Assembly (NCBI GenBank): GCA_019894885.1
Contig: JAGXNP010000010.1
Span: forward strand, 1-36,066
Direction of reading: 5' to 3'
From: Promethearchaeota archaeon
GTDB lineage: Archaea; Asgardarchaeota; Lokiarchaeia; Sigyniarchaeales; SOKP01
Length of the DNA stretch: 36,066 nucleotides
The position numbers were made by a program, and so were the translations under genes. Shown here one piece after another: positions 6,569 to 25,772 of this stretch. Within the stretch, counting starts at the first letter, position 1; the number at the start of each line of letters is the position of its first letter. Below the pieces are notes generated by a model, which was given only the letters and a program-made list of their open reading frames with translations, was not told the DNA's origin and did no database searches.

Positions 6569-8404
6569 TTAAAATAAATCCTTAACGACAAAATCTAAAT
6601 TGAGATCTTTTAAAGTTTCTTTAAATGGATAACCAGTTTCAGGATTCCAACCCATTTTTTCACAATATCCTTTATAATCCTCTAAATAATCTACAGTTAC
6701 TGTCCTTTCAGGTATTTTATTCTTAATGATATCTATACCTTCTCGGAGTGTGAATGCCTGTCTCAAAGTTTGAATTCTTTGGCCTGTTTTAATCGCTTCG
6801 GCGATGTCTAAGTCCCATCCTACAACTGATTTAACTAATTCTAATAGAGGATATTTCTGAAAAACATATACAAATCCACATAGTCCAAGACTATTAGTAA
6901 ATTGCGATATTGCAGTAAAAAGCTTTTCAGCTTCACTTCTATCTTCGCCAGGGCGCTTAAATTTTCTTGGCAATGTAATTCCTTCGAATAATCCATTTGG
7001 TTTAATTATCGGTCCCATTGCAAAAAAATCCAAACTTGCTGTAGTATGTCTACCTGGTGTTGGATCGAAAGCAAAAGTAGTTCCCATGTTTTTATAATAT
7101 TTTGGTGAATGCATGCCCAATTCTTGACCCATTGAGTGCATCGCATATTCTGAACCCTTACCCAGTTTTTCTGCTGCTATTTTAGTACCATCTGCTAGCA
7201 AATCACCAATACCATCTCGATTAATTATTTTATTTAATAGTGTAATGATAGTTTCTGAGTTTCCCCAAGTCAATTCGAGTCCGTCAGTATCATCCTTAGT
7301 AAGTAAACCATTTTCAAAACACTCGATTGCAAATGCAATCGTCGCTCCAGCAGAAATAGTATCAATTCCAGCTCGATTACACAAGTCGTTCGCTTTAAAT
7401 ATTGACATCAGATCGTCGTTAAGTAATAGATGTCCAAAACTGGCACAAGTTTCGTATTCAGGGCGATGAGTTTCTTCTAAATCCACTTCTGGGACTTTCA
7501 TGATTGCCCCACAACGAACGGGACATGAGAAGCATCCGTATGGTTTTTGTTTATACTTATCTATTTCAATACCTGATATTTTAGATAATCTCTCAGGCGG
7601 AAAATCTTCTTTTCTTCCGCCCCAATTCTTGGCGGGAGTATCTCCTATTTGAAATAGAATTTCATTTCCCATTGTGGTTCCTAATGTCCTATAACCCTCA
7701 ATTCCACCCGCGGTAGCAGCGTTTATACCTTCGTTATAATCTTTTGTATGTTGGATAAGAGCGTCTTTATCAGCAACCTCAATCTTTCTTGCTCCTTTGA
7801 GAACAATCGCTTTAAGTTTTTTAGATCCCATAACAGCTCCAAATCCAGATCTTCCCGCAATTCTAGCTTTATCATTAACAATTCCAGATATTAAACTTAA
7901 ATTTTCACCTGCTTGACCAATGCTAGCAATCTGAACGCTTCCATGTTTAGCTTTAAGTTTATCTTCGGTTTGAACAACATCCAAACCCCATAAATCTGAA
8001 GCATCGATAAATTGCTTATCATCTTCCAAAATTGTTATGTATCTTGGACTATCAGCCATCCCTTTAATCAGAATTGCATCATACCCGCATTTCTTTATTT
8101 CAGGACCAAAATAACCTCCACAATTTGAATCACCCCATGTGTTTGTTAGCGGAGATTTTCCTGCGACCATGAAACGACCTGTTAATGGTGCAACTGTGCC
8201 AGTTAATAAACCTGGAAAAAATCCGAATACAGATTCAGGACTAAGAGCATCTGTTTTTGAGGGCATGTTTTCATAAATGAGTTTGGTTGCTAGACCATAT
8301 CCTCCGATGTATTGACGATAAATTTGTTCTGATAGTTCTTCTTCTTTAAATGTTTCATTAGTAAGATCTACCCATAGTATTTTACCTAAAAATCCGTTTG
8401 GCAA
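6569..8404 (-). CDS. aor: Aldehyde ferredoxin oxidoreductase (tungsten AOR family)
   Basis: A 611-residue protein, full length for the AOR family, which oxidises aldehydes to carboxylic acids and passes the electrons to ferredoxin using a bis-pterin tungsten centre and one [4Fe-4S] cluster. The N-terminus GFLGKILWVDLTNETFKEEE and GLLTGTVAPLTGRFMVAGKS are typical. The cluster ligands fit C291, C294, C298 (CFSCPVRC) and C509 (LGLCGF). ARIAGRSGFGAVMGSKKLKA is the conserved pterin-binding stretch. Substrate cannot be told from sequence; the family also includes enzymes acting on formaldehyde and glyceraldehyde-3-phosphate. It is divergent from the UxaA/SuyAB-like pair, so it may handle an aldehyde from the same carboxylate pathway. 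Confidence 0.95.
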   Translation of the reverse strand: MPNGFLGKILWVDLTNETFKEEELSEQIYRQYIGGYGLATKLIYENMPSKTDALSPESVFGFFPGLLTGTVAPLTGRFMVAGKSPLTNTWGDSNCGGYFGPEIKKCGYDAILIKGMADSPRYITILEDDKQFIDASDLWGLDVVQTEDKLKAKHGSVQIASIGQAGENLSLISGIVNDKARIAGRSGFGAVMGSKKLKAIVLKGARKIEVADKDALIQHTKDYNEGINAATAGGIEGYRTLGTTMGNEILFQIGDTPAKNWGGRKEDFPPERLSKISGIEIDKYKQKPYGCFSCPVRCGAIMKVPEVDLEETHRPEYETCASFGHLLLNDDLMSIFKANDLCNRAGIDTISAGATIAFAIECFENGLLTKDDTDGLELTWGNSETIITLLNKIINRDGIGDLLADGTKIAAEKLGKGSEYAMHSMGQELGMHSPKYYKNMGTTFAFDPTPGRHTTASLDFFAMGPIIKPNGLFEGITLPRKFKRPGEDRSEAEKLFTAISQFTNSLGLCGFVYVFQKYPLLELVKSVVGWDLDIAEAIKTGQRIQTLRQAFTLREGIDIIKNKIPERTVTVDYLEDYKGYCEKMGWNPETGYPFKETLKDLNLDFVVKDLF

Positions 8405-8528: not shown

Positions 8529-8819
8529 ATGCTAAAACAATCGAAAAACTATATTATTATGAATCCAGATGATAATTGTGCTACTGCTCTGGAAGATATA
8601 TCAAAAAATTCACAAATTCAAATAAGGGAAAATTCCATTATTATTAACTATAATATACCTTTAGGACATAAAATCGCTTTAGAAGACATCGAAAAAGGTG
8701 ATATGGTTAAAAAATATGGTCATACTATAGGGTTTGCTACTGAAGATATAAATAAAGGAGATTGGATACATACTCATAATCTTACAAGCCAGTATCTCAA
8801 GGAGGTTGTGAAAACATGA
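8529..8819 (+). CDS. Altronate dehydratase / sulfolactate sulfo-lyase small subunit (SAF domain)
   Basis: A 96-residue SAF-domain protein. It contains DNCATALEDISKNSQ, then NIPLGHKIALEDIEKGDMVK and GHTIGFATEDINKGDWIHTH, the GHKIA/KYG..IG.A..DI..G.W.HTHN pattern of the UxaA N-terminal domain. In E. coli UxaA this domain is fused to the large domain; here it is separate, as in (2R)-sulfolactate sulfo-lyase (SuyA/SuyB) and split sugar-acid dehydratases. The stop overlaps the start of the large subunit by four bases, so the two are translated together. Confidence 0.88.
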   Translation: MLKQSKNYIIMNPDDNCATALEDISKNSQIQIRENSIIINYNIPLGHKIALEDIEKGDMVKKYGHTIGFATEDINKGDWIHTHNLTSQYLKEVVKT

Positions 8820-10003
8820 ATGAAGAATTTATGGGGTATCAACGAACGAATGGAGAAGTAGGAATTAGAAATAAAATAGCAATAATTTCTTCCGTTGTAT
8901 GCGTAAATCATATAGTTCAGCAAATCGCTAATAAAGTTAAGGATGCTGTGCCTATTACTCATCCTTTAGGATGTGGTCAATTTGGACCTGATTATAGCAA
9001 CACTTTGAATACTTTAATTGGTTTAGGAAAAAACCCTAATGTGTTTGGAGCTGTAGTTGTTGGTTTAGGATGTGAAAATATCAGTAGTAGATTAATAGCT
9101 AAAAATATCAAGAAATCAAAAAAACCGGTTGAATTTTTTGATTTACAAGAAGTTAAAGGAGGATCACCAGCTGCAATAGAAAAAGGTATTATCCTTGGGA
9201 ACAGAATTTCTGAGGAAGCAAGAGAATTGAAAAGAGAACCATTTGATTTCTCCCATATCGTTTTAGGATTAGAATGTGGAGGATCAGATTCAATTTCTGG
9301 AATTTCAGCAAATCCAGTTTTAGGAATTATATCTGATAGAATTGTTAAATGTGGAGGGACTTCTATTTTAGCAGAATTTACGGAATGGATTGGGACTGAA
9401 CATTTATTAATTAAACGAGCAATTGATAAAAGTGTCGCAGAACAAATACATAACTTACTCTCCGGTTTTTTAGAAAATCTAAAAGATTTAGGCATTAATT
9501 TTCTTGGAGTACAACCCACACCTGGGAATATTCAAGGCGGTTTAACAACTATCGAAGAAAAAAGTCTAGGTTCCATAGCAAAAGCTGGAAAATCTCCTAT
9601 TCAGGGTCTAATTCAATATACAGAAAAACCTAAAGGGAAAGGTTTGTGGTTAATGATCGAACCAAGTTTGGATGTTGAATCTATGACTGGATTAGCTGCA
9701 GTAGGAGCAAATATTATTGCCATGACGACAGGAAGAGGTAGTCCTTGTGGAAATCCTGTAGCTCCTGTGATAAAATTATGCGGGAATCCAAAAACTTGTG
9801 AATGGATGGCAGAAAACATTGATGTTGATGTAAGTTCAATAATTAAAGGAGAAGATTCCGTGGAGGAACTTGCAGAAGTTCTGTGGTTAAGAATGAAAAA
9901 GGTATTGAACGGTGAAAAAACTCAAGCAGAAAATTTAGGTTTTAATGATATAGCGATTTGGAGAAATACAGCATCACCGTTTCAATACATGCATTGTAAA
10001 TAA
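8816..10003 (+). CDS. UxaA/SuyB-family dehydratase large subunit
   Basis: A 395-residue catalytic subunit of the altronate/galactarate dehydratase superfamily. It opens with GYQRTNGEVGIRNKIAIISS. HPLGCGQFG (about 43-51), VVGLGCEN (about 79-86), LGLECGGSDSISGISANP (about 144-161) and the C-terminal TTGRGSPCGNPVAPVIKLCG (about 305-324) carry conserved Cys and His positions that could bind the catalytic metal or Fe-S. A strong Shine-Dalgarno site (AAGGAGGTTGTG, 8799-8810) precedes the ATG. With the SAF subunit it should eliminate water from a sugar acid, or sulfite from sulfolactate; sequence alone does not decide which. Confidence 0.88.
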   Translation: MNEEFMGYQRTNGEVGIRNKIAIISSVVCVNHIVQQIANKVKDAVPITHPLGCGQFGPDYSNTLNTLIGLGKNPNVFGAVVVGLGCENISSRLIAKNIKKSKKPVEFFDLQEVKGGSPAAIEKGIILGNRISEEARELKREPFDFSHIVLGLECGGSDSISGISANPVLGIISDRIVKCGGTSILAEFTEWIGTEHLLIKRAIDKSVAEQIHNLLSGFLENLKDLGINFLGVQPTPGNIQGGLTTIEEKSLGSIAKAGKSPIQGLIQYTEKPKGKGLWLMIEPSLDVESMTGLAAVGANIIAMTTGRGSPCGNPVAPVIKLCGNPKTCEWMAENIDVDVSSIIKGEDSVEELAEVLWLRMKKVLNGEKTQAENLGFNDIAIWRNTASPFQYMHCK

Positions 10004-10015
10004 AAAGAGGATAAC

Positions 10016-11317
10016 TTATAAAAACGGATTTTTATCTTTAAAAATCTTCTCTTTATATTGCTCCAGATGTGGGGGAGCTAAACCTTTTTCTGTTGCTTCT
10101 TTTTTCATATCTTTTAGAATCTCACTACAATTTATTGAAACCGGACACCAGTGATAACAGTTTTCGCATCCTGTACAGAGAAAAAGACCATCATTTACAG
10201 CAGCTTCGATTCCATTATGAATATAATCCCGTATTATAGCAGTGGCACCTAAACCATACTTTGAAGCGTAAATATTTCCAAATGCTCGTGAAGCAGTGCA
10301 TGGATAAATACAGCTCTTACAACCAATACATTTCAAGAAATCCTGGTAAATGAGATTTTCTCTAGCAGCTTTCGTTCGCCAATCATCGACAAGGATGACA
10401 ACTACTTCTTTTGCTCCATACATACCTTGAACACTTGTACCTTGTATATCAGATGTATTTGAGGGTCCTGAAATGAGACTTATGTAATTAAAAGAAACAT
10501 TGTTAATCCGAGATTGTAATTTAGTCACTAATATTGCATCAAATATGGTAGGAACGATTTTTGTGATGCCACATACAACTATATGCTTTTCAGTTGCTCT
10601 AGTAATAAGACTGATGTTTCCTTCGTTTTCTCCTAAAACAATTGTTCCATCTTCAGCAGATATAGCATTTGCTGATGTTAATGAGATTTTTACATCATTG
10701 AGTAATTCATTTCTGTAAGTGTTTCTAAAATAATCAACGATAGCTTGGGCTTTAGGTTCGAGTTCTATTCCATATATTTCCTTTATTTTGTTAGCTATTT
10801 CTTCTTCAGTAAAATGAGCTCCTGGACCTACTTGAAAGCTTGGCAATTTATATTCGAATAGTTGAACCAACACATCACCTAAATCAGTTTCTTTAATTTT
10901 GATCTCATTCTTCTTTAGCACATCTATAATCCCAATGTCTTTAGCTTCGGTCGATTTTGATTTATATATGATCTTAGCATCTCCCAATTCCTGCATGAAA
11001 ATCTTTTGAGCTTCTTCATTAGTTTTTGCATAATAGACGATGAAGTTCTTTTTCCGCATTATTTCGATACATTGCTCAACATACGACTCCATATGGTCAA
11101 CGAAGTCTACTCGCATCTTAACCAGGTTTTCACGATTTTGATCCACGAATTCTCGACTTGAATCTTCATATAAATACTTTAAATCATGTTGTCTGGTTTT
11201 TATTGTGCAAGCAAATTTCCAGAAATTTCCAAATTGCTTTTCTAATGTCCCTTCTTCTTGGGAAACTTCAACATTTCTCTTTACTTTCTCATATAATTTT
11301 TTTCCGTTTTCATTCAT
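10016..11317 (-). CDS. LutB-like LUD-domain iron-sulfur protein (lactate/hydroxyacid oxidation)
   Basis: A 433-residue protein. The middle (about 85-300) is a LUD domain, with VYYAKTNEEAQKIFMQELGD, LVQLFEYKLPSFQVGPGAHF, ISLTSANAISAEDGTIVLGE and LISGPSNTSDIQGTSVQGMY. The C-terminal part has two [4Fe-4S] motifs, CIGCKSCIYPC (near residue 330) and CTGCENCYHWCP (near residue 380). LutB works with LutA and LutC in quinone- or electron-carrier-linked oxidation of L-lactate. A LutA-like partner lies immediately upstream with an 8-bp overlap; no separate LutC is in the window. The oxidised hydroxyacid is not determinable, and the link to the convergent UxaA/SuyB pair is inference from position. Confidence 0.85.
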   Translation of the reverse strand: MNENGKKLYEKVKRNVEVSQEEGTLEKQFGNFWKFACTIKTRQHDLKYLYEDSSREFVDQNRENLVKMRVDFVDHMESYVEQCIEIMRKKNFIVYYAKTNEEAQKIFMQELGDAKIIYKSKSTEAKDIGIIDVLKKNEIKIKETDLGDVLVQLFEYKLPSFQVGPGAHFTEEEIANKIKEIYGIELEPKAQAIVDYFRNTYRNELLNDVKISLTSANAISAEDGTIVLGENEGNISLITRATEKHIVVCGITKIVPTIFDAILVTKLQSRINNVSFNYISLISGPSNTSDIQGTSVQGMYGAKEVVVILVDDWRTKAARENLIYQDFLKCIGCKSCIYPCTASRAFGNIYASKYGLGATAIIRDYIHNGIEAAVNDGLFLCTGCENCYHWCPVSINCSEILKDMKKEATEKGLAPPHLEQYKEKIFKDKNPFL

Positions 11318-12050
11318 TAAGTGGATCAGCTCCTTCCATAATGTTTACAATAAAATCTTCGAATTTGATCACCGATTTCTTTATTTGGTACTCTTCTCTG
11401 ATTCGGGTTAATGCAGTAAAGCAGAATGGGCATGCTGTTAGTAATATTTTACCTCGTTTTAATTGATCAAAAATTAATTTTGAATTGTAATCACTATTTT
11501 CTTTAAATATTGAATAAACACCTCCTCCAGCGCCACAACAGATACTATTAGTTTTATTATTTTCCATTTCCCTGACTTCAATGTTTTCGATTGAATTTAG
11601 GATTTGTCTTGGTTCCTCAAGAATAGGAATCACCGCATTTCTTAAATGACAAGCATCGTGGTAACTAACTTTTAAATTCTTACCAGAATATTTTAGGTCT
11701 AATTTTGATAAATTCTCTGGTTCAGCTAAAAATTGAAGAAAATGTTTAACTTTAACTTTAAAATCTTTTCCTATAAATTGGCTGTAATATTTAGTTAAAT
11801 AATTATAGCATCCAGCACAAATAGTCACGATTTCAGAGACATCATTTAATTCGAACCAGTTATTTACATATTCCACATGATCTTTTAACTCCATGTCACT
11901 TCCAATATGATAAGATAAAGCCCCGCAACACGGAACATCATCTAGAACTGTGTAATTTGGATCTAGGTAATTAATAATTTTAATTGCATTTTTACATGTC
12001 TCTTGATAACGAGTTTTTGATAAACATCCTAAATAAATTAATTTGGTCAA
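11310..12050 (-). CDS. LutA/HdrB-like CCG-domain iron-sulfur protein
   Basis: A 246-residue protein with two cysteine-rich CCG domains. The first spans LGCLSKTRY, DVPCCGALSYH and CAGCYNYL. The second spans SYHDACHLRN, SICCGAGGGVYS and ACPFCFTAL. This arrangement binds the [4Fe-4S]-type clusters of heterodisulfide reductase HdrB, glycolate oxidase GlcF and LutA. It is the first gene of a two-gene unit with the LutB-like protein, so LutA is the best role: an electron-transfer subunit of a lactate/hydroxyacid-oxidising complex. An HdrB-like role cannot be excluded from sequence. Confidence 0.87.
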   Translation of the reverse strand: MTKLIYLGCLSKTRYQETCKNAIKIINYLDPNYTVLDDVPCCGALSYHIGSDMELKDHVEYVNNWFELNDVSEIVTICAGCYNYLTKYYSQFIGKDFKVKVKHFLQFLAEPENLSKLDLKYSGKNLKVSYHDACHLRNAVIPILEEPRQILNSIENIEVREMENNKTNSICCGAGGGVYSIFKENSDYNSKLIFDQLKRGKILLTACPFCFTALTRIREEYQIKKSVIKFEDFIVNIMEGADPLNE

Positions 12051-12255: not shown

Positions 12256-12549
12256 GTGAGTTGGTTTAAAATTCCAAAATTATTAGAAAACAAGGAGAAG
12301 AATTTTTCACTATTCTTGAATAAAAATAGGTGTGGAGGCTGCCAAGCTTGCGTGTATGTGTGCCCAACGGGTATTTTAGAGATGGGAGGCGAGTTAAATA
12401 TGAGAATCGCTTATACTCCACGAGTTAAAGAGGGAAAAGGAAAATATTGTACTGCGTGTAAGCGATGTGAATATGGTTGCCCAGATTGGTGTATATATAT
12501 TTTAGATGAATCTGAAAAAGAAAATATGGCAAAAAAAGCTAAAGCATAA
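12256..12549 (+). CDS. korD: 2-oxoacid:ferredoxin oxidoreductase delta subunit (two-cluster ferredoxin)
   Basis: A 97-residue ferredoxin-type subunit carrying two [4Fe-4S] motifs, CGGCQACVYVCP (about 27-38) and CTACKRCEYGCPDWC (about 68-82). It is first in a D-A-B-C operon, the order seen for archaeal 2-oxoglutarate oxidoreductases, and moves electrons from the TPP centre to free ferredoxin. The start is GTG; no upstream ATG is available in frame. The next gene begins 18 bp later. Confidence 0.9.
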   Translation: MSWFKIPKLLENKEKNFSLFLNKNRCGGCQACVYVCPTGILEMGGELNMRIAYTPRVKEGKGKYCTACKRCEYGCPDWCIYILDESEKENMAKKAKA

Positions 12550-12567
12550 TGAGGTGAAAATAAAAAT

Positions 12568-13731
12568 ATGGGAAATAATATGAGATTCATGCCAGAAGGT
12601 AAATATTTAATGATGGGGAACATCGCAATGTCTGAGGGTGCGTTGGCTGCGGGATTAAATTTTTTTGGAGGTTATCCGATCACACCAAGTACAGAAGTAA
12701 TAGAACATTTAGCGGCTAGATTACCGCAAGTTGGGGGGGTGTGTATGCAAATGGAGGACGAACTTGCATCTATTAATGCAGTTATTGGAGCATCTTTAGT
12801 CGGAGCAAAAGCTATGACAGCAACATCGGGTCCGGGGATTGCTTTGATGACAGAAACAATCTCTATGGCAGCAAATCTAGAAATCCCCTTTGTTTTTTGT
12901 GATGTACAACGAAATGGTCCAGGAACGGGATATGTAACCGAACCTCATCATAACGATATTGGATTAATGAGATTTGCTGGAAACGGTGAGTTTCAAGTTA
13001 TTACTTTAGCACCTATGAGCTGTCAAGAATTATACGATCTAACAATCGTTGCTTTTAATTTTGCAGAGACTTACCGTTGCCCTGTCTTCATTATGTCAGA
13101 TGCTTATCTAGGACATCTTCACGAAGTAGTTAAAATACCATCTAAGGAAAAAGTGGAAAAGATGGTAATAAAGCGGGAAATACCTGAAGATATCATTGGA
13201 AAATTTTCTTATAAAGATGAAAGTACAGGAAAATATATTATCCCTAAACCACCGATTATGGGTACTGACTATTGTCCGCCTATGTTCCTCTCACAGCCTC
13301 ATAGTCTTGAAGGTATGCCAACTCCTAAACCTCAAATATTTACTGAAATGATGATAAAAAAAATAACAAGCAATATTGATAAAATAGCTCTTACGGACAC
13401 TTATAAATTGGATGATGCTGAAATAATCATAATAGCGTATGGACTGCCTGTTAGAGCGAGTTATCGGGCTGTTGATTTAGCTCGAAAAGAAGGGATAAAA
13501 GTTGGAATTCTTAGGTTGATAACAATTTGGCCTTTTCCAGACGAAAAAGTTAAAGAAACGGTTAAAGATGCCAAAGTGGTTATAGTTCCAGAATTAAATT
13601 ACACAGGAGTTATAGCGGAACAAGTCGAAAGGGTTACAAACCTTAATACTCCTGTAATTAGAATTCCAAATGTATGTGAAATTCATCATCCACACGATAT
13701 TTTAAAAGTTATAAAGGAGGTGGATAAATAG
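12568..13731 (+). CDS. korA: 2-oxoacid:ferredoxin oxidoreductase alpha subunit (2-oxoglutarate type)
   Basis: A 387-residue alpha subunit. GGYPITPSTEVIEHLAARLP (about 30-49) and MEDELASINAVIGASLVGAK followed by ATSGPGIALMTETISMA are the pyrimidine-domain signatures. RNGPGTGYVTEPHHNDI contributes to the TPP site. Domain II near the C-terminus includes IIIIAYGLPVRASYRAVDLA and LRLITIWPFPDEKV. With KorB, C and D it oxidatively decarboxylates a 2-oxoacid to its acyl-CoA and reduces ferredoxin. The PITPSTEVIE form favours 2-oxoglutarate over pyruvate, but 2-oxoisovalerate remains possible. GAGGTGA precedes the ATG; the stop overlaps the korB start. Confidence 0.92.
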   Translation: MGNNMRFMPEGKYLMMGNIAMSEGALAAGLNFFGGYPITPSTEVIEHLAARLPQVGGVCMQMEDELASINAVIGASLVGAKAMTATSGPGIALMTETISMAANLEIPFVFCDVQRNGPGTGYVTEPHHNDIGLMRFAGNGEFQVITLAPMSCQELYDLTIVAFNFAETYRCPVFIMSDAYLGHLHEVVKIPSKEKVEKMVIKREIPEDIIGKFSYKDESTGKYIIPKPPIMGTDYCPPMFLSQPHSLEGMPTPKPQIFTEMMIKKITSNIDKIALTDTYKLDDAEIIIIAYGLPVRASYRAVDLARKEGIKVGILRLITIWPFPDEKVKETVKDAKVVIVPELNYTGVIAEQVERVTNLNTPVIRIPNVCEIHHPHDILKVIKEVDK

Positions 13732-14648
13732 TGTCGGGAATAGGGCCTATGTATCCAAATGAAAAGCCAGAGAATCCATATGTCTTAGTATCATACGCTG
13801 GACATTTATTAGGAAACTATTCGTCTAGATTATGCGCAGGTTGTGGATATGGAATCATCGGGCATATCTTTACCCGACTATTTGAAGATGAAAAACTTGA
13901 TCCAAAACTATATCCACTAGTTCTTGGTATAGGGTGCTATTCTCAAATGCTATTAACAGTACACTACGCAACCCAAAAAGTTCTATCTCTCCACGGCCGT
14001 GCGCCTGCTTTAGCGACAGGTATGAAAATGGCAAATCCTCAAATGAAACCAATAATTTTTACTGGTGATGGAGATTGTTTGGGTATTGGAGGTAATCATT
14101 TTATACACACATGCCGTCGAAATTTGGATTGTATTATTTTAATTTTCAATAATAGCATTTACGCAATGACAGGTGGACAGGGTGCACCTACGACATTATT
14201 TGGTGCCAAAAGTACAACGACACCATATAAAATGTTTGAAAATCGAAGCGATGGAGTTAAACTGGCTTTGGCTGCGGGAGCAACTTATGTAGCGCGAACA
14301 ACAGTTGCTCATCCACGCACTTTTATGAAGTATTTTAGAAAGGCACTGAAGCATAAGGGAACCTCTGTAATAGAATTAATTACGCCTTGTGTTACTTATT
14401 TCGGGAGAAAAAATTTAAATAACCTTGGAGCTGAATATTTAGGATTAAAAGGAGAGAAGATGGATACAGCAGGTAAGATGATAGATTGGATAAAAAGAAA
14501 TAGTATAAGAGTAAATCAAGCCAAGTTCATGAATGAAGAAGAACTATTTAACAAATATATTATTGGAGAATTTAGATACGCACCAGATCAACCCGAGTAT
14601 TCCGATGAATATGCTAAAATACAAAAAATAGCAAGAGGAGGTATATGA
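13731..14648 (+). CDS. korB: 2-oxoacid:ferredoxin oxidoreductase beta subunit (TPP-binding)
   Basis: A 305-residue beta subunit. RLCAGCGYGIIGHIFTRL (about 33-50) is the N-terminal conserved cysteine region. The TPP/Mg motif is GDGDCLGIGGNHFIHTCRRN followed by IFNNSIYAMTGGQGAPTT (about 110-150), in the GDG...NN pattern. The start is GTG, overlapping the korA stop by one base, with AAGGAGGTGGAT inside the end of korA as its ribosome binding site. The TGGQGAPTT stretch is standard in Kor/Por beta subunits. Confidence 0.93.
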   Translation: MSGIGPMYPNEKPENPYVLVSYAGHLLGNYSSRLCAGCGYGIIGHIFTRLFEDEKLDPKLYPLVLGIGCYSQMLLTVHYATQKVLSLHGRAPALATGMKMANPQMKPIIFTGDGDCLGIGGNHFIHTCRRNLDCIILIFNNSIYAMTGGQGAPTTLFGAKSTTTPYKMFENRSDGVKLALAAGATYVARTTVAHPRTFMKYFRKALKHKGTSVIELITPCVTYFGRKNLNNLGAEYLGLKGEKMDTAGKMIDWIKRNSIRVNQAKFMNEEELFNKYIIGEFRYAPDQPEYSDEYAKIQKIARGGI

Positions 14649-14652
14649 AAAA

Positions 14653-15252
14653 GTGACTCGCTATGAAATTCGAGTAAGTGGATTTGGTGGACAAGGAGTT
14701 ATCACTCTTAGTAAAATGATAATAATGGCGAGCTCAATCTATGAGGGACTTGCTGCTACACAAACTGAAGCCTATTCCGCAGCTGCGAGAGGAGGAAAAT
14801 GTTGGGCAGAAGTAGTTGTTGAATTAGATAAAAATATAGAACTTATAGATTACCCTAAAGCTTTGAAACCTTACGATTTTTTAATCGTCTTATCAGAAGA
14901 ATCTGCTAATGATGTTAAGGTAGATTTTATAAAGGACGAGGAAAACACAGGATTTTTAATATGGGACCCCACTACAATTAAAAAACTCAAGGTAGGAAAA
15001 AAAATTAATAAGGTTTTGGGCATTCCCGTTCAAAAATTAGCAGTTGAAAAGTTCGGGAATATTGTTTTTGGAAACTCAATTTTGTTTGGTATCTTTACGA
15101 TACTTTCGGGAATCTTTTCCGAAGAATCTGCCTTAGAAACTATAAAGAAGTTTGTTCCGAATTCTACTTTAGATAAAAACTTAGAAGCTTTTGAACTAGG
15201 AAAACAAGAAGCAATGAATTTTCTAAACAAAATAAAGGAGGAGAATAATTAG
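14653..15252 (+). CDS. korC: 2-oxoacid:ferredoxin oxidoreductase gamma subunit
   Basis: A 199-residue gamma subunit. RVSGFGGQGVITLSKMIIMA (about 7-26) is the glycine-rich opening motif, and TEAYSAAARGGKCWAEVVVE (about 39-58) is the conserved 'RGG' region facing the alpha/beta core. It starts with GTG four bases after the korB stop, with AGAGGAGGTAT as ribosome binding site. Length and order match archaeal KorC. Confidence 0.92.
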   Translation: MTRYEIRVSGFGGQGVITLSKMIIMASSIYEGLAATQTEAYSAAARGGKCWAEVVVELDKNIELIDYPKALKPYDFLIVLSEESANDVKVDFIKDEENTGFLIWDPTTIKKLKVGKKINKVLGIPVQKLAVEKFGNIVFGNSILFGIFTILSGIFSEESALETIKKFVPNSTLDKNLEAFELGKQEAMNFLNKIKEENN

Positions 15253-15253
15253 A

Positions 15254-17071
15254 ATGTATTTTGGGAAGGTTCAAAAAGGTTGGAAAGAGTTATATGAAGA
15301 AATAATTCAAACTGGGAAATGTGTATACTGTGGAGCATGTGGGGCATTTTGTGCAAACATTCTATTTGATAAAGAAAATGAGATTCCAATAGAAGATGGG
15401 TCCTGCAAAGATATGAACACATGTAAAGAAGGATATGGACTTTGCTATAATCTCTGTCCAAAAACCGAAACCGAATCGATATCTTTGTCGTTATTAGACA
15501 ATTGGGTTTTTGGAAAGAAACATGATAAGATTTTAGGGCATTATCTTGATATCGTTTCAGTTAAGCTAACAGAAAAAGCAAGAAAAAAGATACCAACTAA
15601 TGCTGGTCCATTAACAGGGTTAATATGGCTCGCCATGGAAAATAACTTAATTGATTCGTCCATTATAACTGATAAAGACGATAACTTTAGACCGTTCCCT
15701 ATAATAGCCCAGAATTCTCAGGACATAATCAAAGGAGCCGGATATAAACCAAGTCAAGGTCCATTACTTTCACTATTAGGAGATGCTATCAATAAAGAAA
15801 GCGCAGATATTGCCGTTGTAGGTACTCCTTGTCAGATTCAAGCTCTAAGAAAACTACAAAATCACCCTGCATTTGATTACGAAGCATATGATTTAGTATC
15901 ATTAGCTATTGGGACTTTTTGTTTTGGAACTTATTATAATCAATTATTAAAACTGGTTTTTAATGAATTCGGGATCAAAGCTAGCGAGATAGAAAAAATA
16001 AATACCGATAAAGATAACTTTAACATGAATATAATCTGTAATTCGACTGTAAAAGAAATACCACTAAATACTTTATACGAAAAAGCGATTAGAAAAGCTT
16101 GTTTTTCTTGTTCTGATTACACAGCTTCTTTCGCAGATTTATCAATTGGAATATATGGTAGTAAAGAGGGGTGGAATACACTAATCGTTAGAACTGAAAG
16201 AGGAAAACAAGTATATGAATTAGCCATTGAACAAGGGTTCATCGAAACAATGCCTTTAGAACATAATATGAAAGAAATTATTTTGGATCTTACCAGAAGT
16301 AAAACTGATATAGTCAAGATAGAATCAATAACTCAACATTCCCCTGAAATTAAAAGTATTACGGTTAGAAACTCGAGGATTGCGGACGCTTACAAACCGG
16401 GAATGTTTGTCATTTTATGGCTTCCTGATGTTGACTTCTTACCAATGTCCATCTCAAGCATTAATGACGACCTTATAGAAGTAACCTTTAAAAAAATAGG
16501 GGAGGGAACATCCAAATTATTTGATTTAACTGAAGGAGACTCAATTGGAATTAGAGGTCCTTTTGGAAATGCTTTTAATTATGAGGATTCGAAAAATATT
16601 CTAGTAGTAGGAGGAGGGATGGGAATCGCAGCCTTAACATCCTTAATAGAAACTCTAAAACAAAATAAGTCAAATGTTCAAGTTGCAATTGGAGCTAAAG
16701 ATGAAGATTCGTTAATATTCGCTGAGAGATTGTTAAGATTGATTCCCAATACGATGTGTACTACTGAAGACGGATCTGTTGGTAAGAAATGTGTTGTAAC
16801 TAATCCCGTTGAAGATCTAATTAATAACGAGAACTTTGATTTGATTATTACGTGTGGACCCGAAATTATGATGAAAAAAGTTTTTGAACTAGCGAATTCA
16901 AAGAATATCGAAATTCAAGCCAGTTTAGAAAGAAAAATGAAATGTGGGCTAGGAATATGTGGTTCTTGTTGCATAGGAGCAAATAATAATACTCCTGTTT
17001 GCAAAGATGGCCCCATCTTTAATTCTGATCAATTGAAAAGCTTCCCTAAATTTGGTACATATTCCAAATAA
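15254..17071 (+). CDS. FrhB-PyrK fusion: F420/Fe-S oxidoreductase joined to a FAD/NAD/[2Fe-2S] electron-transfer module
   Basis: A 605-residue two-part flavoprotein. The N-terminal part has Fe-S ligands C23, C26, C29, C33 and a second cysteine group C51, C57, C64, C68, then an FrhB/FdhB-type body: VVGTPCQIQALRKLQ, LAIGTFCFGTYYNQLL, KACFSCSDYTASFADLSIG. This family reduces or oxidises coenzyme F420 using FAD and Fe-S. From about residue 350 a PyrK-like module follows: KPGMFVILWLP, LPMSISSIN (FAD; the usual Arg is Leu), GIRGPFGNAF, VVGGGMGIAALTSL (NAD loop), and [2Fe-2S] ligands C564, C569, C572, C583. It is the last gene of the kor operon, two bases after korC with AAGGAGGAGAAT before its ATG. 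I infer it links Kor-derived ferredoxin electrons to F420 and/or NAD(P). The partners are not proven. Confidence 0.85.
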   Translation: MYFGKVQKGWKELYEEIIQTGKCVYCGACGAFCANILFDKENEIPIEDGSCKDMNTCKEGYGLCYNLCPKTETESISLSLLDNWVFGKKHDKILGHYLDIVSVKLTEKARKKIPTNAGPLTGLIWLAMENNLIDSSIITDKDDNFRPFPIIAQNSQDIIKGAGYKPSQGPLLSLLGDAINKESADIAVVGTPCQIQALRKLQNHPAFDYEAYDLVSLAIGTFCFGTYYNQLLKLVFNEFGIKASEIEKINTDKDNFNMNIICNSTVKEIPLNTLYEKAIRKACFSCSDYTASFADLSIGIYGSKEGWNTLIVRTERGKQVYELAIEQGFIETMPLEHNMKEIILDLTRSKTDIVKIESITQHSPEIKSITVRNSRIADAYKPGMFVILWLPDVDFLPMSISSINDDLIEVTFKKIGEGTSKLFDLTEGDSIGIRGPFGNAFNYEDSKNILVVGGGMGIAALTSLIETLKQNKSNVQVAIGAKDEDSLIFAERLLRLIPNTMCTTEDGSVGKKCVVTNPVEDLINNENFDLIITCGPEIMMKKVFELANSKNIEIQASLERKMKCGLGICGSCCIGANNNTPVCKDGPIFNSDQLKSFPKFGTYSK

Positions 17072-17075
17072 TTAA

Positions 17076-17927
17076 TTATTCTAATAATTTTTCAGGTATT
17101 CCATTTTCGCAGGCTACGCCTACTTGGCACAACCCGCAACCGTAGATATTAATTCCATAATTTTCCTTAATATAAGGAACGGTTCCCATAACATGTTTGG
17201 AGCATAAATTTTTATCGTGGCGATTTTCAAAAGAGATTGCGTTAACTGGGCAACGGTCAATACAATCCCCACAATTGGAGCAATATTCGTAGGGATCTAA
17301 AGGCCTCTTGGTAGAATCTGATGGTAAATCGTAATCTACAATTAAACTACCACATCTCATCGCTTTACCCCGTGAGTTGATAAAACCATCGGATAACCCA
17401 AAAGATCCTAAACCAGCCGCAAAGCAGCAATGCCTGTGAGACCAGTTAGAAGCCCAAATCTTTCGATTGATTTTAAATAAGAGTTTTTCCTGAATAGGTG
17501 CCATCGCATTTATACCCAATTTTTTCAACTCGTCAATTAAATGTCTTTGAATATTCACATTAGCTTTTTCTCCGAATAAACGCGTGTTAGCCCATCTCTC
17601 TGAGGGCTTGTCTTTTGAGTATTCGAAATTCTCCTTCTTTGTATTCAGGGCTATAGGAAGAATATAAGCTACTACGCTTATATCTTCAGTTGATATTGGA
17701 ATGCCATTTTTTTTACAATACCATGAATACGCTTCTTTTGGGGTGAGATAAAATTCGCCAATAATCTTCTTATAATCACTAAAAATAGGATCATTTCCAG
17801 AAACAAACCCAACTATTACATCGGGATCAAAAATGAGAGAGCCGTCAACCATTTTCATCCTATTAATTTCATCATTTTCTAAGAAATTATTTATCTTTTC
17901 AATGAACCATTCTTTAGTTATATCCAT
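17076..17927 (-). CDS. QueG-like (COG1600-type) iron-sulfur protein
   Basis: A 283-residue protein. RHCCFAAGLGSFGLSDGFIN (about 169-188) resembles the GxGxxG.NG region of the epoxyqueuosine reductase / reductive dehalogenase superfamily. Near the C-terminus are two Fe-S groups: CSNCGDCIDRCPVNAI and later CGLCQVGVAC. It is shorter than typical QueG (about 370 residues) and lacks the C-terminal HEAT-like part. A role in queuosine synthesis is therefore not assured; many archaeal relatives are of unknown function. It converges on the kor operon with only four bases between the stops, and is transcribed separately. Confidence 0.75.
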   Translation of the reverse strand: MDITKEWFIEKINNFLENDEINRMKMVDGSLIFDPDVIVGFVSGNDPIFSDYKKIIGEFYLTPKEAYSWYCKKNGIPISTEDISVVAYILPIALNTKKENFEYSKDKPSERWANTRLFGEKANVNIQRHLIDELKKLGINAMAPIQEKLLFKINRKIWASNWSHRHCCFAAGLGSFGLSDGFINSRGKAMRCGSLIVDYDLPSDSTKRPLDPYEYCSNCGDCIDRCPVNAISFENRHDKNLCSKHVMGTVPYIKENYGINIYGCGLCQVGVACENGIPEKLLE

Positions 17928-21489: not shown

Positions 21490-22296
21490 ATGATAGATGA
21501 TAGTATAATCTCTGTGAGAGATTTAAAAAAGTATTTTGGCGAAGTTAAAGCTGTTAACGGCATTTCCTTTGATGTTCGTAAAGGAGAGGTTTTTGGACTT
21601 CTAGGTCCAAATGGGGCGGGGAAAACAACAACAATTAAACTCCTATTAGGACTTCTTGAGCCTATAGAGGGTGTTATAAGTATTTTCGGTTTAAATCCAG
21701 AACGTGAAGAAGTTCTAATGAAAAAGAAAGTAGGTTATGTTTCTGAAGAAGCGCTAATATTCAAATCACTTACACCTAAGGACTTGTTTAATTTTATTGC
21801 TTCAATTCGTCAACTAGATGCAAACGAAGCAACCAAGAGAGTATCTGAATACCTTGAAAGTTTAGGAGCGACAGAATATTATGAACAAATGATCGCAACT
21901 TTATCGCACGGAAACAAACAAAAAATACAAATCGTTGCCTCCCTATTACATGAACCAGAGCTCTTGATATTAGACGAACCATTAGCAGGGCTTGACGCAA
22001 AATCTGTAAGAGTGGTAAAGGAATTATTAGATATGCATATTGAAAAAGGTGGAGCAGTGCTTTTTTCAACCCATATTATGGAAGTAGCAGAAGATCTGTG
22101 TGATCGTATAGCGATAATAAATAAAGGTAAATTAGTAGCGCTTGGAACGATTGAAGAGCTTAGGAATCAAGCAGATAAAGTTGGAGCAAGTCTCGAAGAT
22201 GTTTTTCTCAAATTAACTGAGCAAGATTCTTCCATAGAAGAGATTGTAAAGAAATTAAGGAAATCTTATAAGAAAAAAATAGGGGAGTCAGCTTAA
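21490..22296 (+). CDS. ABC transporter ATP-binding protein, cassette 1
   Basis: A 268-residue ATPase of the ABC-2 type. Walker A GPNGAGKTT starts at residue 39. The signature reads LSHGNKQK in place of LSGGQ, Walker B is LLILDEPLAGLD, and the H-loop is in FSTHIMEVAEDLCDRIAIIN. It drives the partner permease that starts two bases after its stop. It is paralogous to the ATPase at 24965, with which it shares long identical blocks. Preceded by a 256-bp leader carrying a 15-bp direct repeat. Confidence 0.94.
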   Translation: MIDDSIISVRDLKKYFGEVKAVNGISFDVRKGEVFGLLGPNGAGKTTTIKLLLGLLEPIEGVISIFGLNPEREEVLMKKKVGYVSEEALIFKSLTPKDLFNFIASIRQLDANEATKRVSEYLESLGATEYYEQMIATLSHGNKQKIQIVASLLHEPELLILDEPLAGLDAKSVRVVKELLDMHIEKGGAVLFSTHIMEVAEDLCDRIAIINKGKLVALGTIEELRNQADKVGASLEDVFLKLTEQDSSIEEIVKKLRKSYKKKIGESA

Positions 22297-22297
22297 G

Positions 22298-24931
22298 GTG
22301 GAAGAGAAAAAAGGATTAAACATTTATTCGTTGTCAAAATTTACAAATCTTGAAATGATTTTAGATTCTCAACTAGCAGCAGCAGGAGCACATCAGTCCA
22401 AATTGCTCGAAAAGTGTGAGAAAAATAAAAAATATGTAAGTACGCAAGCGAAATCGTTAAAATTTGTTTCAGGTCTCTTGATGGTGTTTATGCCTTTACT
22501 TTCAATCGTAATGTATTTTGCAATTACAGACGGCATTAACCCGTTCTATCCTATAGAGGGTAGAATTTATTTATTTAGTTTTTTTATCTGGATATTTTTA
22601 ATTATTTCTATATTGTATTTATTCCTTTTTGGATTGTTTACAACAAGTTCATTGATGTCAGGTTCTGCCTTTAAATGGCTGCACACGCTACCACTATCTC
22701 GAAAACATTTAAAAAAGTTAGGTTTTATGACCCTATTTAGAAACCTTAATACACAAATAATAACAATGACATTTGCTTTTCCAATAATTTTTTTTATTAT
22801 AACGCAAAATATTTTTGCCTTTTTTATGTGCCTTATTTCTTCTTTTCTTGTAACTATATTTGGAGCGAGTATTTTAATTATTATTGGGGAAAAGTTCAGC
22901 CGGGTGTTCTCAGAATCGAATAGAAAATCGGGTAAAGCTAATTTTTTAAGAATGGTCTCACTGATGGGTTTTTTCCTTATAGCTTTTGGTTCGAGTTTTG
23001 TTTTACAGTTCGGTTTAAACGCCATATACAATCTTATAGATGATTTTAGTGTAAATCCTCCTACATTGGGTTTAAACATGATTCTAAGCATTATCCCATT
23101 ACCATTTGCACCTGGATATTTAGTGAGCTTAAGTTTGATCCCTGACCAAGTTCCAGTAAGTCTATGGACCTCAACTTTAGTGGGGATGGGGCTTTTAGCG
23201 GGTTTAACTTTCCTAACTTACAAAATAGCAATCAAATCTTTATCGAGCGTTGCTACTTTTGATTTAGATTCCTCAAGAACTAAGAAAGATGCAAAAAAAG
23301 AGGTTAAACCAATCTCAATAGAAGTGAAATCAACATCCCCCCTTAAATCATATATTCGTAAAGATTTAATATCTTCAACACGAGATTATCAATCTTTAAT
23401 CTTTATATTAATGCCGCTTATCTACCCAATGATTATGATTTTATCGATGCAACAAGTTATAAGGATGGAAGTGTCTTCATCTTTTAGTATGATGATTTTG
23501 TGGGCTGTCATTATGATATCAAGCCAATTTATACCCTTGATGTTAGTAGGCGGTTTACTAAATATGGAAGAATCTGGTTCCTCCACGCTTGCATCGTTGC
23601 CTCTTTTGCCCCGGGATCAAGCGAAAGCAAAATTAGTACTTATGTTAATCATACATGGAATTTCTATGAGTCTGATGGCTATAGTTTTAACAATTTTAAC
23701 CCAATCTGTAAATGTTTTGATTTTAATATTAGTTAGCTTACCGATTACATGGGCTTTACTTTTGTTTGTATTTCAAATGAAAGTACGATTATTTGGTACA
23801 ATGAAATACAAATACGTACTTGAGGAAGTTATTATTAAAAATAAATTAGTTAAATGGGTATCTATAGTTGCTGCTGATGTAGGAGTCTGCATTTTTATTC
23901 TGATACTTGGATTTACTTTTTTCATTACTCTAGGAATTACACCTGCCATACTCATATTGTTTTTCTTAGGATTAGTCGGATTATCTGTGCTTATTTACAC
24001 TTTTACAAAAATGTTCCCGAATATTGATAAATTACCACAATTTGAAACAAGGGGATTACTAAGAAATAAACCTATTCTTGGAGGTATCGTAATAATGCTT
24101 TTATTCATATTATTTCCATGGATTGCAAGTTTTATTGAGATTATTTTTCTTCCCCTCATTTTGGGTTTAGAATTTACCGGGATCTTATTCGTAGAATTCT
24201 TCCTGATTGAGGGTTTTATAGCACTTTTATTGCTCCTAATAGTTCCAAAAGGAATGAAATTACCTTGCAAAGATGAAACAATTTTAGGCTATACTAAAAC
24301 AATCGGTTTAACAAGGGTTAAACCTTTAGTTCGAAACCTCATTGTTGGATTTGGTTCTTCTGCTATTTTTTGTGGTACTTTGTTTATTGGTGCTAATCTT
24401 TTAGGAGTATTTTATTTTGCTCCTGAGTTCTTGTTTCGAAATCCAAATCCTTATCCTTTTCTGCTTGGTTGGTTCATTTGGATTTTTATGATTAGGCCAG
24501 GGTTATGGGAGGAAGTGGCATTTCGAGGCGTTGTTATACCTCTTCTTTCAAAAAAATATAAAAAAATATTTACGATTCTAATAAGTGGGGTTATTTTTGG
24601 ATTAGCACACGCATTTAATATCATAGGAGTTTTATTATCAGGTGGAGATCATATTTATACGCTATTTCAGGTTATTTACACGACTTTGATCGGTTTTTCA
24701 ATGGGATATATGTATCTAAAAACTAAAAGCCTATTACCAAGCATTATTTATCATTATTTAATTGATACAGTAGGACTTATATTTCTAAATGTTTACTTCG
24801 AAAACATTTTTCTCGTGGGAGTATTTTTAATTGTATTTCTAGGCGTTATTCCTGCAATTCTGAATATTGGCTTAACAAAATTGGTTTTTTGGAAGGATCA
24901 AAATAAAGACTTTTTAATTAATAAACAATAA
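22298..24931 (+). CDS. ABC-2 permease fused to a CPBP (CAAX/Abi) intramembrane protease, cassette 1
   Basis: An 877-residue polytopic membrane protein. Residues 1-60 are soluble; about 60-640 form an ABC-2/NatB-like permease with two groups of six or so helices and a cytoplasmic loop (about 325-355). The last about 230 residues are a CPBP glutamic-type intramembrane protease, with E738 and E739 in WEEVAFRGV, H771 in FGLAHAFN and H819 in HYLID, so the catalytic set is intact. It starts with GTG two bases after the ATPase stop. CPBP enzymes process prenylated proteins or peptides, or give self-immunity to bacteriocins. Joined to an exporter, it could cut a substrate as it is exported; this is inference. 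Confidence 0.85.
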   Translation: MEEKKGLNIYSLSKFTNLEMILDSQLAAAGAHQSKLLEKCEKNKKYVSTQAKSLKFVSGLLMVFMPLLSIVMYFAITDGINPFYPIEGRIYLFSFFIWIFLIISILYLFLFGLFTTSSLMSGSAFKWLHTLPLSRKHLKKLGFMTLFRNLNTQIITMTFAFPIIFFIITQNIFAFFMCLISSFLVTIFGASILIIIGEKFSRVFSESNRKSGKANFLRMVSLMGFFLIAFGSSFVLQFGLNAIYNLIDDFSVNPPTLGLNMILSIIPLPFAPGYLVSLSLIPDQVPVSLWTSTLVGMGLLAGLTFLTYKIAIKSLSSVATFDLDSSRTKKDAKKEVKPISIEVKSTSPLKSYIRKDLISSTRDYQSLIFILMPLIYPMIMILSMQQVIRMEVSSSFSMMILWAVIMISSQFIPLMLVGGLLNMEESGSSTLASLPLLPRDQAKAKLVLMLIIHGISMSLMAIVLTILTQSVNVLILILVSLPITWALLLFVFQMKVRLFGTMKYKYVLEEVIIKNKLVKWVSIVAADVGVCIFILILGFTFFITLGITPAILILFFLGLVGLSVLIYTFTKMFPNIDKLPQFETRGLLRNKPILGGIVIMLLFILFPWIASFIEIIFLPLILGLEFTGILFVEFFLIEGFIALLLLLIVPKGMKLPCKDETILGYTKTIGLTRVKPLVRNLIVGFGSSAIFCGTLFIGANLLGVFYFAPEFLFRNPNPYPFLLGWFIWIFMIRPGLWEEVAFRGVVIPLLSKKYKKIFTILISGVIFGLAHAFNIIGVLLSGGDHIYTLFQVIYTTLIGFSMGYMYLKTKSLLPSIIYHYLIDTVGLIFLNVYFENIFLVGVFLIVFLGVIPAILNIGLTKLVFWKDQNKDFLINKQ

Positions 24932-24964
24932 AAAATTTTAAAATTTTTAATATGATGATGTAGA

Positions 24965-25759
24965 ATGAATGATAATGTTATGATTTCTGTAAGTGAACTA
25001 AAGAAATTTTTTGGGGATGTAAAAGCAGTCAATGGGATTTCGTTTGATGTAAAAAAGGGAGAAGTTTTTGGTCTTTTAGGACCCAACGGAGCCGGTAAAA
25101 CCACTACTATCAAATTATTATTAGGGTTACTCGAACCAAACGAAGGGACCATTAAAATTATGGATTTAAATCCCGAAATAGATGAAGTTCAAATTAAGAG
25201 TCGTGTGGGCTACGTTTCGGAGGAGCCTCTTATCTTTAAAAGTTTGACTCCAAAGGACCTCTTCAATTTTATTGCGTCAATACGCAAATTAAACCCAGAA
25301 GAGACTTCAGAAAGAGCTCAAGAATATTTGGAGAGTTTAGGTGCATTAGAATACTACGAGCAGTTAGTTGCTACTCTTTCTCATGGGAATAAACAAAAAA
25401 TTCAAATAATATCTGCGATCCTCCACGATCCCGATTTACTCATTTTGGACGAACCACTTTCGGGGCTTGACGCAAAATCTGTAAAAGTTGTTAAGGAAAT
25501 CTTAGATATCCATATCGAGAATGGTGGTGCTGTATTATTTTCGACTCATATTATGGAAATTGCAGAAGATTTGTGTGATCGCATCGCGATAATGAATCAA
25601 GGAAGGATTGTAGGAATTGGATCTATGGATGATTTAAGGCAGCAGGCCGATCAGCTAGGAGCTAATCTAGAAGATGTATTCTTAAGATTAACAGAACAAG
25701 ATGTAAGCGTAAACGAGATAGTAAAAAAGTTGAGAAAATCTTTTAGCGACAGAAACTAA
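24965..25759 (+). CDS. ABC transporter ATP-binding protein, cassette 2
   Basis: A 264-residue ATPase closely similar to the one at 21490: Walker A GPNGAGKTT, signature LSHGNKQK, Walker B LLILDEPLSGLD, and FSTHIMEIAEDLCDRIAIMN. Both copies share the unusual His/Asn signature. It begins 33 bp after the first permease stop, so all four genes probably form one transcript. Substrate unknown. Confidence 0.94.
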   Translation: MNDNVMISVSELKKFFGDVKAVNGISFDVKKGEVFGLLGPNGAGKTTTIKLLLGLLEPNEGTIKIMDLNPEIDEVQIKSRVGYVSEEPLIFKSLTPKDLFNFIASIRKLNPEETSERAQEYLESLGALEYYEQLVATLSHGNKQKIQIISAILHDPDLLILDEPLSGLDAKSVKVVKEILDIHIENGGAVLFSTHIMEIAEDLCDRIAIMNQGRIVGIGSMDDLRQQADQLGANLEDVFLRLTEQDVSVNEIVKKLRKSFSDRN

Positions 25760-25772
25760 GTGTAGACCGATC

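Follow-up and report, generated by a model that had tools for sequence, protein, structure and literature searches.

The window analyzed here, a 36,066-nucleotide stretch of DNA (contig C11; GenBank accession number JAGXNP010000010.1) from a Lokiarchaeia genome of 3.22 Mb in 279 contigs (88.8% complete), carries an operon in which the four subunit genes of a 2-oxoacid oxidoreductase are followed by one gene encoding a 605-amino-acid (aa) protein. This protein, labeled FP, fuses an N-terminal ferredoxin-like part, an FrhB domain, and a PyrK domain. In the open reading frame (ORF) list the order is korD-korA-korB-korC-FP, at positions 12256 to 17071 and entirely on the plus strand, with korDABC occupying positions 12256 to 15252. 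KorD (12256 to 12549) is a ferredoxin-like delta subunit with eight cysteines spaced for two [4Fe-4S] clusters (Fer4_7, 2.3e-10), and its best NCBIfam match is OorD (2e-16, under the cutoff of that model). KorA (12568 to 13731; POR_N, 3.6e-57) is the alpha subunit and scores 396.1 bits against PRK08659, for which the cutoff is 411. KorB (13731 to 14648; TPP_enzyme_C, 7.8e-32) is the thiamine pyrophosphate (TPP)-binding beta subunit, with an OorB-like NCBIfam match of 6.2e-57 that is under the cutoff, and KorC (14653 to 15252; POR, 3.9e-25) is the gamma subunit, with a match to PRK08537 (2.4e-35) that is also under the NCBIfam cutoff. All four subunits are therefore present, and the enzyme is a 2-oxoacid:acceptor oxidoreductase (KOR) of the KorDABC/OorDABC type. 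Because the 2-oxoglutarate-specific models score under their cutoffs, they do not fix its substrate, which is probably 2-oxoglutarate.

The FP gene (15254 to 17071) follows korC almost without a break. The korC stop codon TAG ends at position 15252 and the FP start codon ATG lies at position 15254, so the preliminary description of this DNA was right about the adjacency but not about the size of the gap, which is a single base and not two. Ahead of the FP start is a GGAGGAG stretch resembling a ribosome-binding site, and a scan for promoters and terminators gave no excess over shuffled sequence. The ferredoxin-like part of FP (15320 to 15457) carries eight cysteines (Cys 23, 26, 29, 33, 51, 57, 64, and 68) suited to two [4Fe-4S] clusters. 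The FrhB domain (15533 to 16261) is matched above cutoff by FrhB_FdhB_N/C (PF04432/PF04422) over residues 116 to 336, with an E value of 2.7e-37 for the C part, and the PyrK domain (16304 to 17065) is matched by the PyrK model NF000796 over residues 351 to 604 (E = 8.6e-77; 257.8 bits against a cutoff of 224).

Conservation of FP and its linkage to the kor genes

Of the 65 genomes in the family to which this genome belongs, 36 have full-length FP and seven more have fragments of it at contig edges. Beyond this family it was found only in two others within the order, f2 and f4, as diverged copies with approximately 34 to 51% identity. A contig scan with a single-protein query, which reaches close relatives only, found FP only in Lokiarchaeia. 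In trees of the FrhB half and of the PyrK half, all fusions fall on one branch (support of 100/100 and 100/95, respectively). The dozens of independent full-length copies rule out an assembly chimera, a chance product, or a frameshift artifact, and together with the Pfam and NCBIfam matches they confirm that a single FrhB-PyrK fusion follows korDABC.

The preliminary description had named an association with kor genes in related genomes as a test beforehand, and the association was found: korC immediately precedes FP at every examined locus whose contig includes the upstream gene. The complete korD-A-B-C-FP order is present in 22 genomes (loci L009 to L012, L063 to L069, L071 to L078, and L080 to L082). 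A KorA ortholog (at least 72% identity) is present in 42 of the 65 family genomes and in all 36 of those with full-length FP. When fragments are counted, 39 genomes have both KorA and FP, 3 have KorA only, 4 have FP only, and 19 have neither. In the four FP-only genomes, every FP is a fragment at a contig edge, and among the three KorA-only genomes, two have contigs that stop within korB and one (G029) has a broken korB and no korC. These counts indicate that KOR and FP are retained and lost together, and this conservation supports the earlier proposal that FP serves KOR as a dedicated electron transfer partner, one half of which is of the flavin/NAD/[2Fe-2S] type. The G029 locus (L132, 7179 to 9891), which lies in a single-contig genome, contains korD, korA, and a disrupted korB and has neither korC nor FP, as in a decaying kor operon.

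Loci with korDABC, a KorA of lower identity, and no FP are found across the Asgard families. The gene after korC was checked at 15 such loci, and in six of them (families f3, f12, f17, and f18) it is a frame of 657 to 685 aa that starts between -76 and +14 bases relative to the end of korC. All five of these six frames that were scanned are HdrA-like. These korDABC-HdrA2-like loci are L151, L153, L154, L155, L157, and L161, with L153 assigned by size and position only, and a 2-oxoacid-linked bifurcation is possible there. They resemble the FP locus in their korDABC order and in having a gene for an electron transfer flavoprotein right after korC, but that gene encodes an HdrA-type module, a candidate bifurcating flavoprotein, and not an FrhB-PyrK fusion. 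The slot after korC thus holds different electron transfer flavoproteins in different lineages, which supports the assignment of FP as an acceptor module of KOR.

Another combination of related domains was observed at two other loci. At L135 (G041:C196; 2934 to 6555, minus strand), an NfnA/PyrK-like gene is followed by a gene for a 919-aa fusion of FrhB and NfnB/GltA, the FrhB part of which scores just under the model cutoff (257.6 against 269 bits). A second copy of this pair lies at L136 (G024:C25; 4658 to 8297, minus strand), with the domain scan having been made on L135. The FrhB parts of both retain the [DN]GG motif, and the domains suggest that the pair is a bifurcating transhydrogenase of the Nfn type equipped with an F420 module.

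Cofactor sites and predicted structure of FP

The iron-sulfur ligands of FP are strictly kept. Each of the eight cysteines within the N-terminal 90 residues has ferredoxin-like spacing and is present in 39/39 full-length sequences, as are all 16 cluster cysteines of the protein, and the position of this part matches that of the ferredoxin domain in the carbon monoxide dehydrogenase (CODH) zeta subunit (PDB 8RIU). In the FrhB half, the fold is recognizable and the four [4Fe-4S] ligands (Cys 193, 223, 283, and 286), which correspond to Cys 104, 134, 192, and 195 of FrhB (PMC3930138, PMC3591093), are found in 41/41 sequences.

The flavin and F420 sites of the FrhB half are a different matter. In the FrhB structure, the loop 24QDGG wraps the flavin adenine dinucleotide (FAD) pyrophosphate (PMC3930138), and the loop at residues 71 to 77 (AAGTKYT) is positioned at the adenine and isoalloxazine moieties of FAD (PMC3930138, PMC3591093). 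The [DN]GG motif (FrhB positions 25 to 27) is present in 28/28 Lokiarchaeal FrhB paralogs and in 5/5 aligned solved F420-reducing relatives, and Methanocaldococcus jannaschii Fsr also carries QDGG, whereas it is present in 0/41 FP sequences. The equivalent loop in FP typically reads x-E-A-G-P, with variation at positions 24 and 25, which are fixed in the F420-active relatives. GTKYT is replaced by GYKPSQ, with Tyr76 changed to Pro in 36/41 sequences. The proposed F420 contact Ser209 is lost in 41/41 sequences, Lys167 is lost in nearly all, and the IGKGK turn is degenerate, although the place where F420 binds in FrhB has been assigned only tentatively (PMC3591093, PMC3930138). FP therefore lacks the FAD-binding Q[DN]GG and G-T-[KR]-Y loops and the proposed F420 contacts (Ser209 loop and IGKGK) of the F420-reducing FrhB family. 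The best reading of these columns is that the FrhB half acts as a flavin-less, or altered, iron-sulfur bridge. In the f4 copies the loops are lost differently (GGGAEAG and AHATAFAN), and the f4 and f2 copies suggest that the loops were lost after the fusion in more than one line.

In the PyrK half, motifs for FAD (LPMSIS, GEGT, and RGPFGN), NAD (GGGMG and TCGPExMM), and the [2Fe-2S] cluster (Cys 564, 569, 572, and 583) are all recognizable, and GEGT, RGPFGN, GGGMG, TCGPExMM, and the four cysteines are conserved across the FP sequences. The earlier statement that both halves keep most cofactor motifs thus applies to the PyrK half and to the iron-sulfur ligands but not to the FAD and F420 loops of the FrhB half. 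It was also noted earlier that the FAD Arg of the PyrK half is Leu. The residue call is correct, as every FP sequence has L, F, or M at the site before Pro that holds Arg in Lactococcus lactis PyrK, but it is no anomaly. The same site is mostly V, I, or K in free archaeal PyrKs, I in NfnA, and V in sulfhydrogenase gamma, so Leu here is neither a defect nor a family-defining trait, and the idea of a PyrK half broken by loss of this Arg was rejected on the basis of the free archaeal PyrKs and of the solved NfnA and sulfhydrogenase I gamma structures. A conserved A-[KQ]-D follows the NAD-binding strand, and its acidic residue might favor NADH over NADPH. No pyrD partner was found among the scanned window genes, the neighbors of FP being korDABC.

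A first AlphaFold2 model of FP, based on an alignment of 31 fusions only, had a predicted local distance difference test score (pLDDT) of 72.9. Adding paralogs raised it to 92.0, with a predicted template modeling score of 0.91, for an alignment of fusions, FrhB paralogs, and free PyrKs, and the model is confident for each half as well as for how the two are placed relative to each other. In Foldseek searches with this model, the N half matched 8RIU with a template modeling (TM) score of 0.83 by target length at 2.7 Å, and the C half matched L. lactis PyrK of dihydroorotate dehydrogenase B, NfnI, and sulfhydrogenase I gamma with TM scores of 0.76 to 0.85 by target length. No solved chain found by Foldseek covers both halves.

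A putative NAD(P)-linked acceptor module for KOR

The decarboxylation of 2-oxoacids at the TPP of 2-oxoacid:ferredoxin oxidoreductases (OFORs) yields single low-potential electrons. FP may be the dedicated electron acceptor subunit of the four-subunit KorDABC. Electrons would leave the TPP of KorAB for the KorD clusters, pass to the pair of [4Fe-4S] clusters at the FP N terminus, and continue through the [4Fe-4S] cluster of the FrhB domain to the [2Fe-2S] cluster and then the FAD of the PyrK half, from which hydride would be transferred to NAD(P)+. The FrhB domain would have descended from an F420 reductase, lost its FAD/F420 site signature, and become an iron-sulfur bridge and docking piece. 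From the comparisons above we infer complex formation, the electron path, the absence of flavin from the FrhB half, and NAD(P) as the acceptor. The best explanation of the locus as a whole, to which we assign a probability of roughly 55%, is that KorDABC-FP is a 2-oxoacid:NAD(P)+ oxidoreductase working through a flavin-less FrhB bridge.

Some findings weigh against a flavin-less bridge. In the f2 copy (L066) the loops (QAGG and GTKW) depart less from the canonical ones, and the FP-specific GYKPSQ, FCFGT, and AGP are conserved within the family. Since GYKPSQ and FCFGT are kept in this way, the pocket appears to have been remodeled and not randomly decayed, and it may accommodate another ligand or a flavin bound in another way. 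In addition, the F420 biosynthesis genes for CofD and CofE lie on contig C202, with CofE above cutoff, and the other FrhBs of the genome are intact. The altered pocket might accordingly bind flavin and reduce F420, and with NAD(P)+ reduced at the PyrK half, FP would join the KOR, F420, and NAD(P) pools. The conserved changed loops, an intact FrhB fold (pLDDT mostly above 90), nearest solved relatives that are the F420 reductases of CODH and Fwd, and a host able to make F420 would all fit such a dual output. The loss of [DN]GG and Ser209 from every FP sequence, of Lys167 from nearly every one, and of Tyr76 from most, together with the variability at positions 24 and 25, makes it unlikely, if not negligibly so, and the F420 part of the activity that the preliminary description proposed is not borne out.

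That description had gone further and suggested an electron-bifurcating or -confurcating ferredoxin:F420/NAD(P) oxidoreductase, on which two flavoprotein-type halves, many iron-sulfur clusters in a single chain, and the PyrK-type subunits of bifurcating Nfn could be brought to bear. However, the flavin signature of the FrhB half is lost, and the bifurcating FAD of Nfn belongs to NfnB and not to its PyrK-like partner NfnA (PMC9012536). Pfam and NCBIfam found no bifurcating flavin domain of the NfnB, HdrA, Etf, or NuoF type in the operon or the fusion, which leaves the proposal unsupported and very improbable, and because 2-oxoacids can reduce NAD+ in a downhill reaction, no bifurcation is needed. 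PyrK/NfnA-type modules are generally reversible and Lokiarchaeia are anaerobes, so FP could also be imagined in reverse, with NAD(P)H driving reductive carboxylation by KOR for the synthesis of 2-oxoglutarate. NAD(P)H (approximately -320 mV) is too weak for the 2-oxoacid couple (approximately -500 mV) without energy input, and the operon has no bifurcating module; we regard this direction as highly improbable. The same energetic argument was made for F420H2 by Chadwick et al. (PMC9012536). The ferredoxin-like N terminus of FP and five more POR_N matches in the genome (one under cutoff) would suit a general ferredoxin:NAD(P)+ reductase that merely adjoins kor and serves other enzymes too, but the strict linkage and co-loss with this single KOR make that improbable, and in this fragmented genome the other OFOR genes share no contig with any FrhB homolog.

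Bacteria already provide OFORs whose core gains NAD(P) dependence from an additional flavin subunit, namely, the phenylglyoxylate:NAD+ oxidoreductase PadEFGHI and the 2-oxoglutarate:NADP+ oxidoreductase of Azoarcus. NCBIfam labels the Pad family NADH dependent. The proposed KorDABC-FP would follow the logic of phenylglyoxylate:NAD+ oxidoreductase with an unrelated module, as the flavin subunit of the Pad and Azoarcus enzymes is of the glutamate synthase small-subunit type, and these enzymes are not known to include FrhB or PyrK. The C half of FP shares its FAD, NAD, and [2Fe-2S] motifs with PyrK, NfnA, and sulfhydrogenase gamma and passes the PyrK cutoff, but unlike these proteins it is fused to FrhB, and its gene neighbors are those of kor instead of pyrD, nfnB, or a hydrogenase.

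Low-potential oxidoreductases with dedicated acceptors of the FrhB type are likewise known. The best sequence and fold match of the N half is to CODH zeta (8RIU) and FwdI (8RJA) of “Candidatus Ethanoperedens thermophilum,” which combine ferredoxin and FrhB domains in the same way and are dedicated acceptors docked on a low-potential oxidoreductase, the role proposed here for FP (PMC11493965). Unlike FP, they retain Q[DN]GG, bind FAD, reduce F420, have no PyrK domain, and serve other host enzymes. FrhB6 of ANME-1 archaea, an FrhB paralog clustered with pyruvate:ferredoxin oxidoreductase, has also been proposed as a dedicated acceptor, but its partner is not a KOR, it is predicted to reduce F420, and no PyrK fusion is described for it (PMC9012536). 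Full-text literature searches, which covered few subscription papers, found no FrhB-PyrK or Kor-PyrK fusion, and the examined passages of a survey of fusions in archaea name FrhB solely in connection with Fsr (PMC11237513). What is new is the fusion of PyrK to an FrhB without the signature in a putative KOR acceptor, a combination unmatched in the literature searched.

Lokiarchaeia are relatives of the ancestors of eukaryotes, and their handling of electrons from the breakdown of amino acids and carbon compounds is relevant to models that derive eukaryotes from syntrophy. If 2-oxoacid electrons do go directly to NAD(P)+, they would bypass ferredoxin and F420, and reconstructions that assign Kor electrons to ferredoxin would be wrong for this lineage. 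FrhB homology alone is no proof of F420 use. More tentatively, at somewhat less than even odds, FP may represent a new class of acceptor module, in which a flavin-stripped F420 reductase domain bridges KOR to an NAD(P) reductase, and the slot after korC may be an exchangeable cassette (HdrA, FrhB-PyrK, or none) that sets the electron destination across Asgard archaea. The locus offers a testable case of acceptor modules swapped behind a conserved oxidoreductase core.

Neighboring genes

Two genes divergent from the operon, identified with Pfam and NCBIfam, often adjoin the locus in close relatives and are candidate members of it at most: a CCG (HdrB/LutA-like) gene (11310 to 12050, minus strand) and a LUD plus Fer4 (LutB/LldF-like) gene (10016 to 11317, minus strand). 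Together with a gene of the galactarate/altronate dehydratase C-terminal type, they make up the region from 8816 to 12050, which close relatives often keep next to kor. Positions 6569 to 8404 hold an AOR gene. These genes may form a sugar-acid or hydroxyacid oxidation cluster supplying 2-oxoacids. On the other side, convergent to the operon, a 283-aa iron-sulfur protein resembling QueG and reductive dehalogenases is encoded at 17076 to 17927, and it adjoins FP in several relatives. Farther downstream, positions 21490 to 28382 hold two tandem pairs, each of an ABC ATPase and a membrane protein of 870 aa whose C-terminal domain is of the Rce1-like CAAX protease type.

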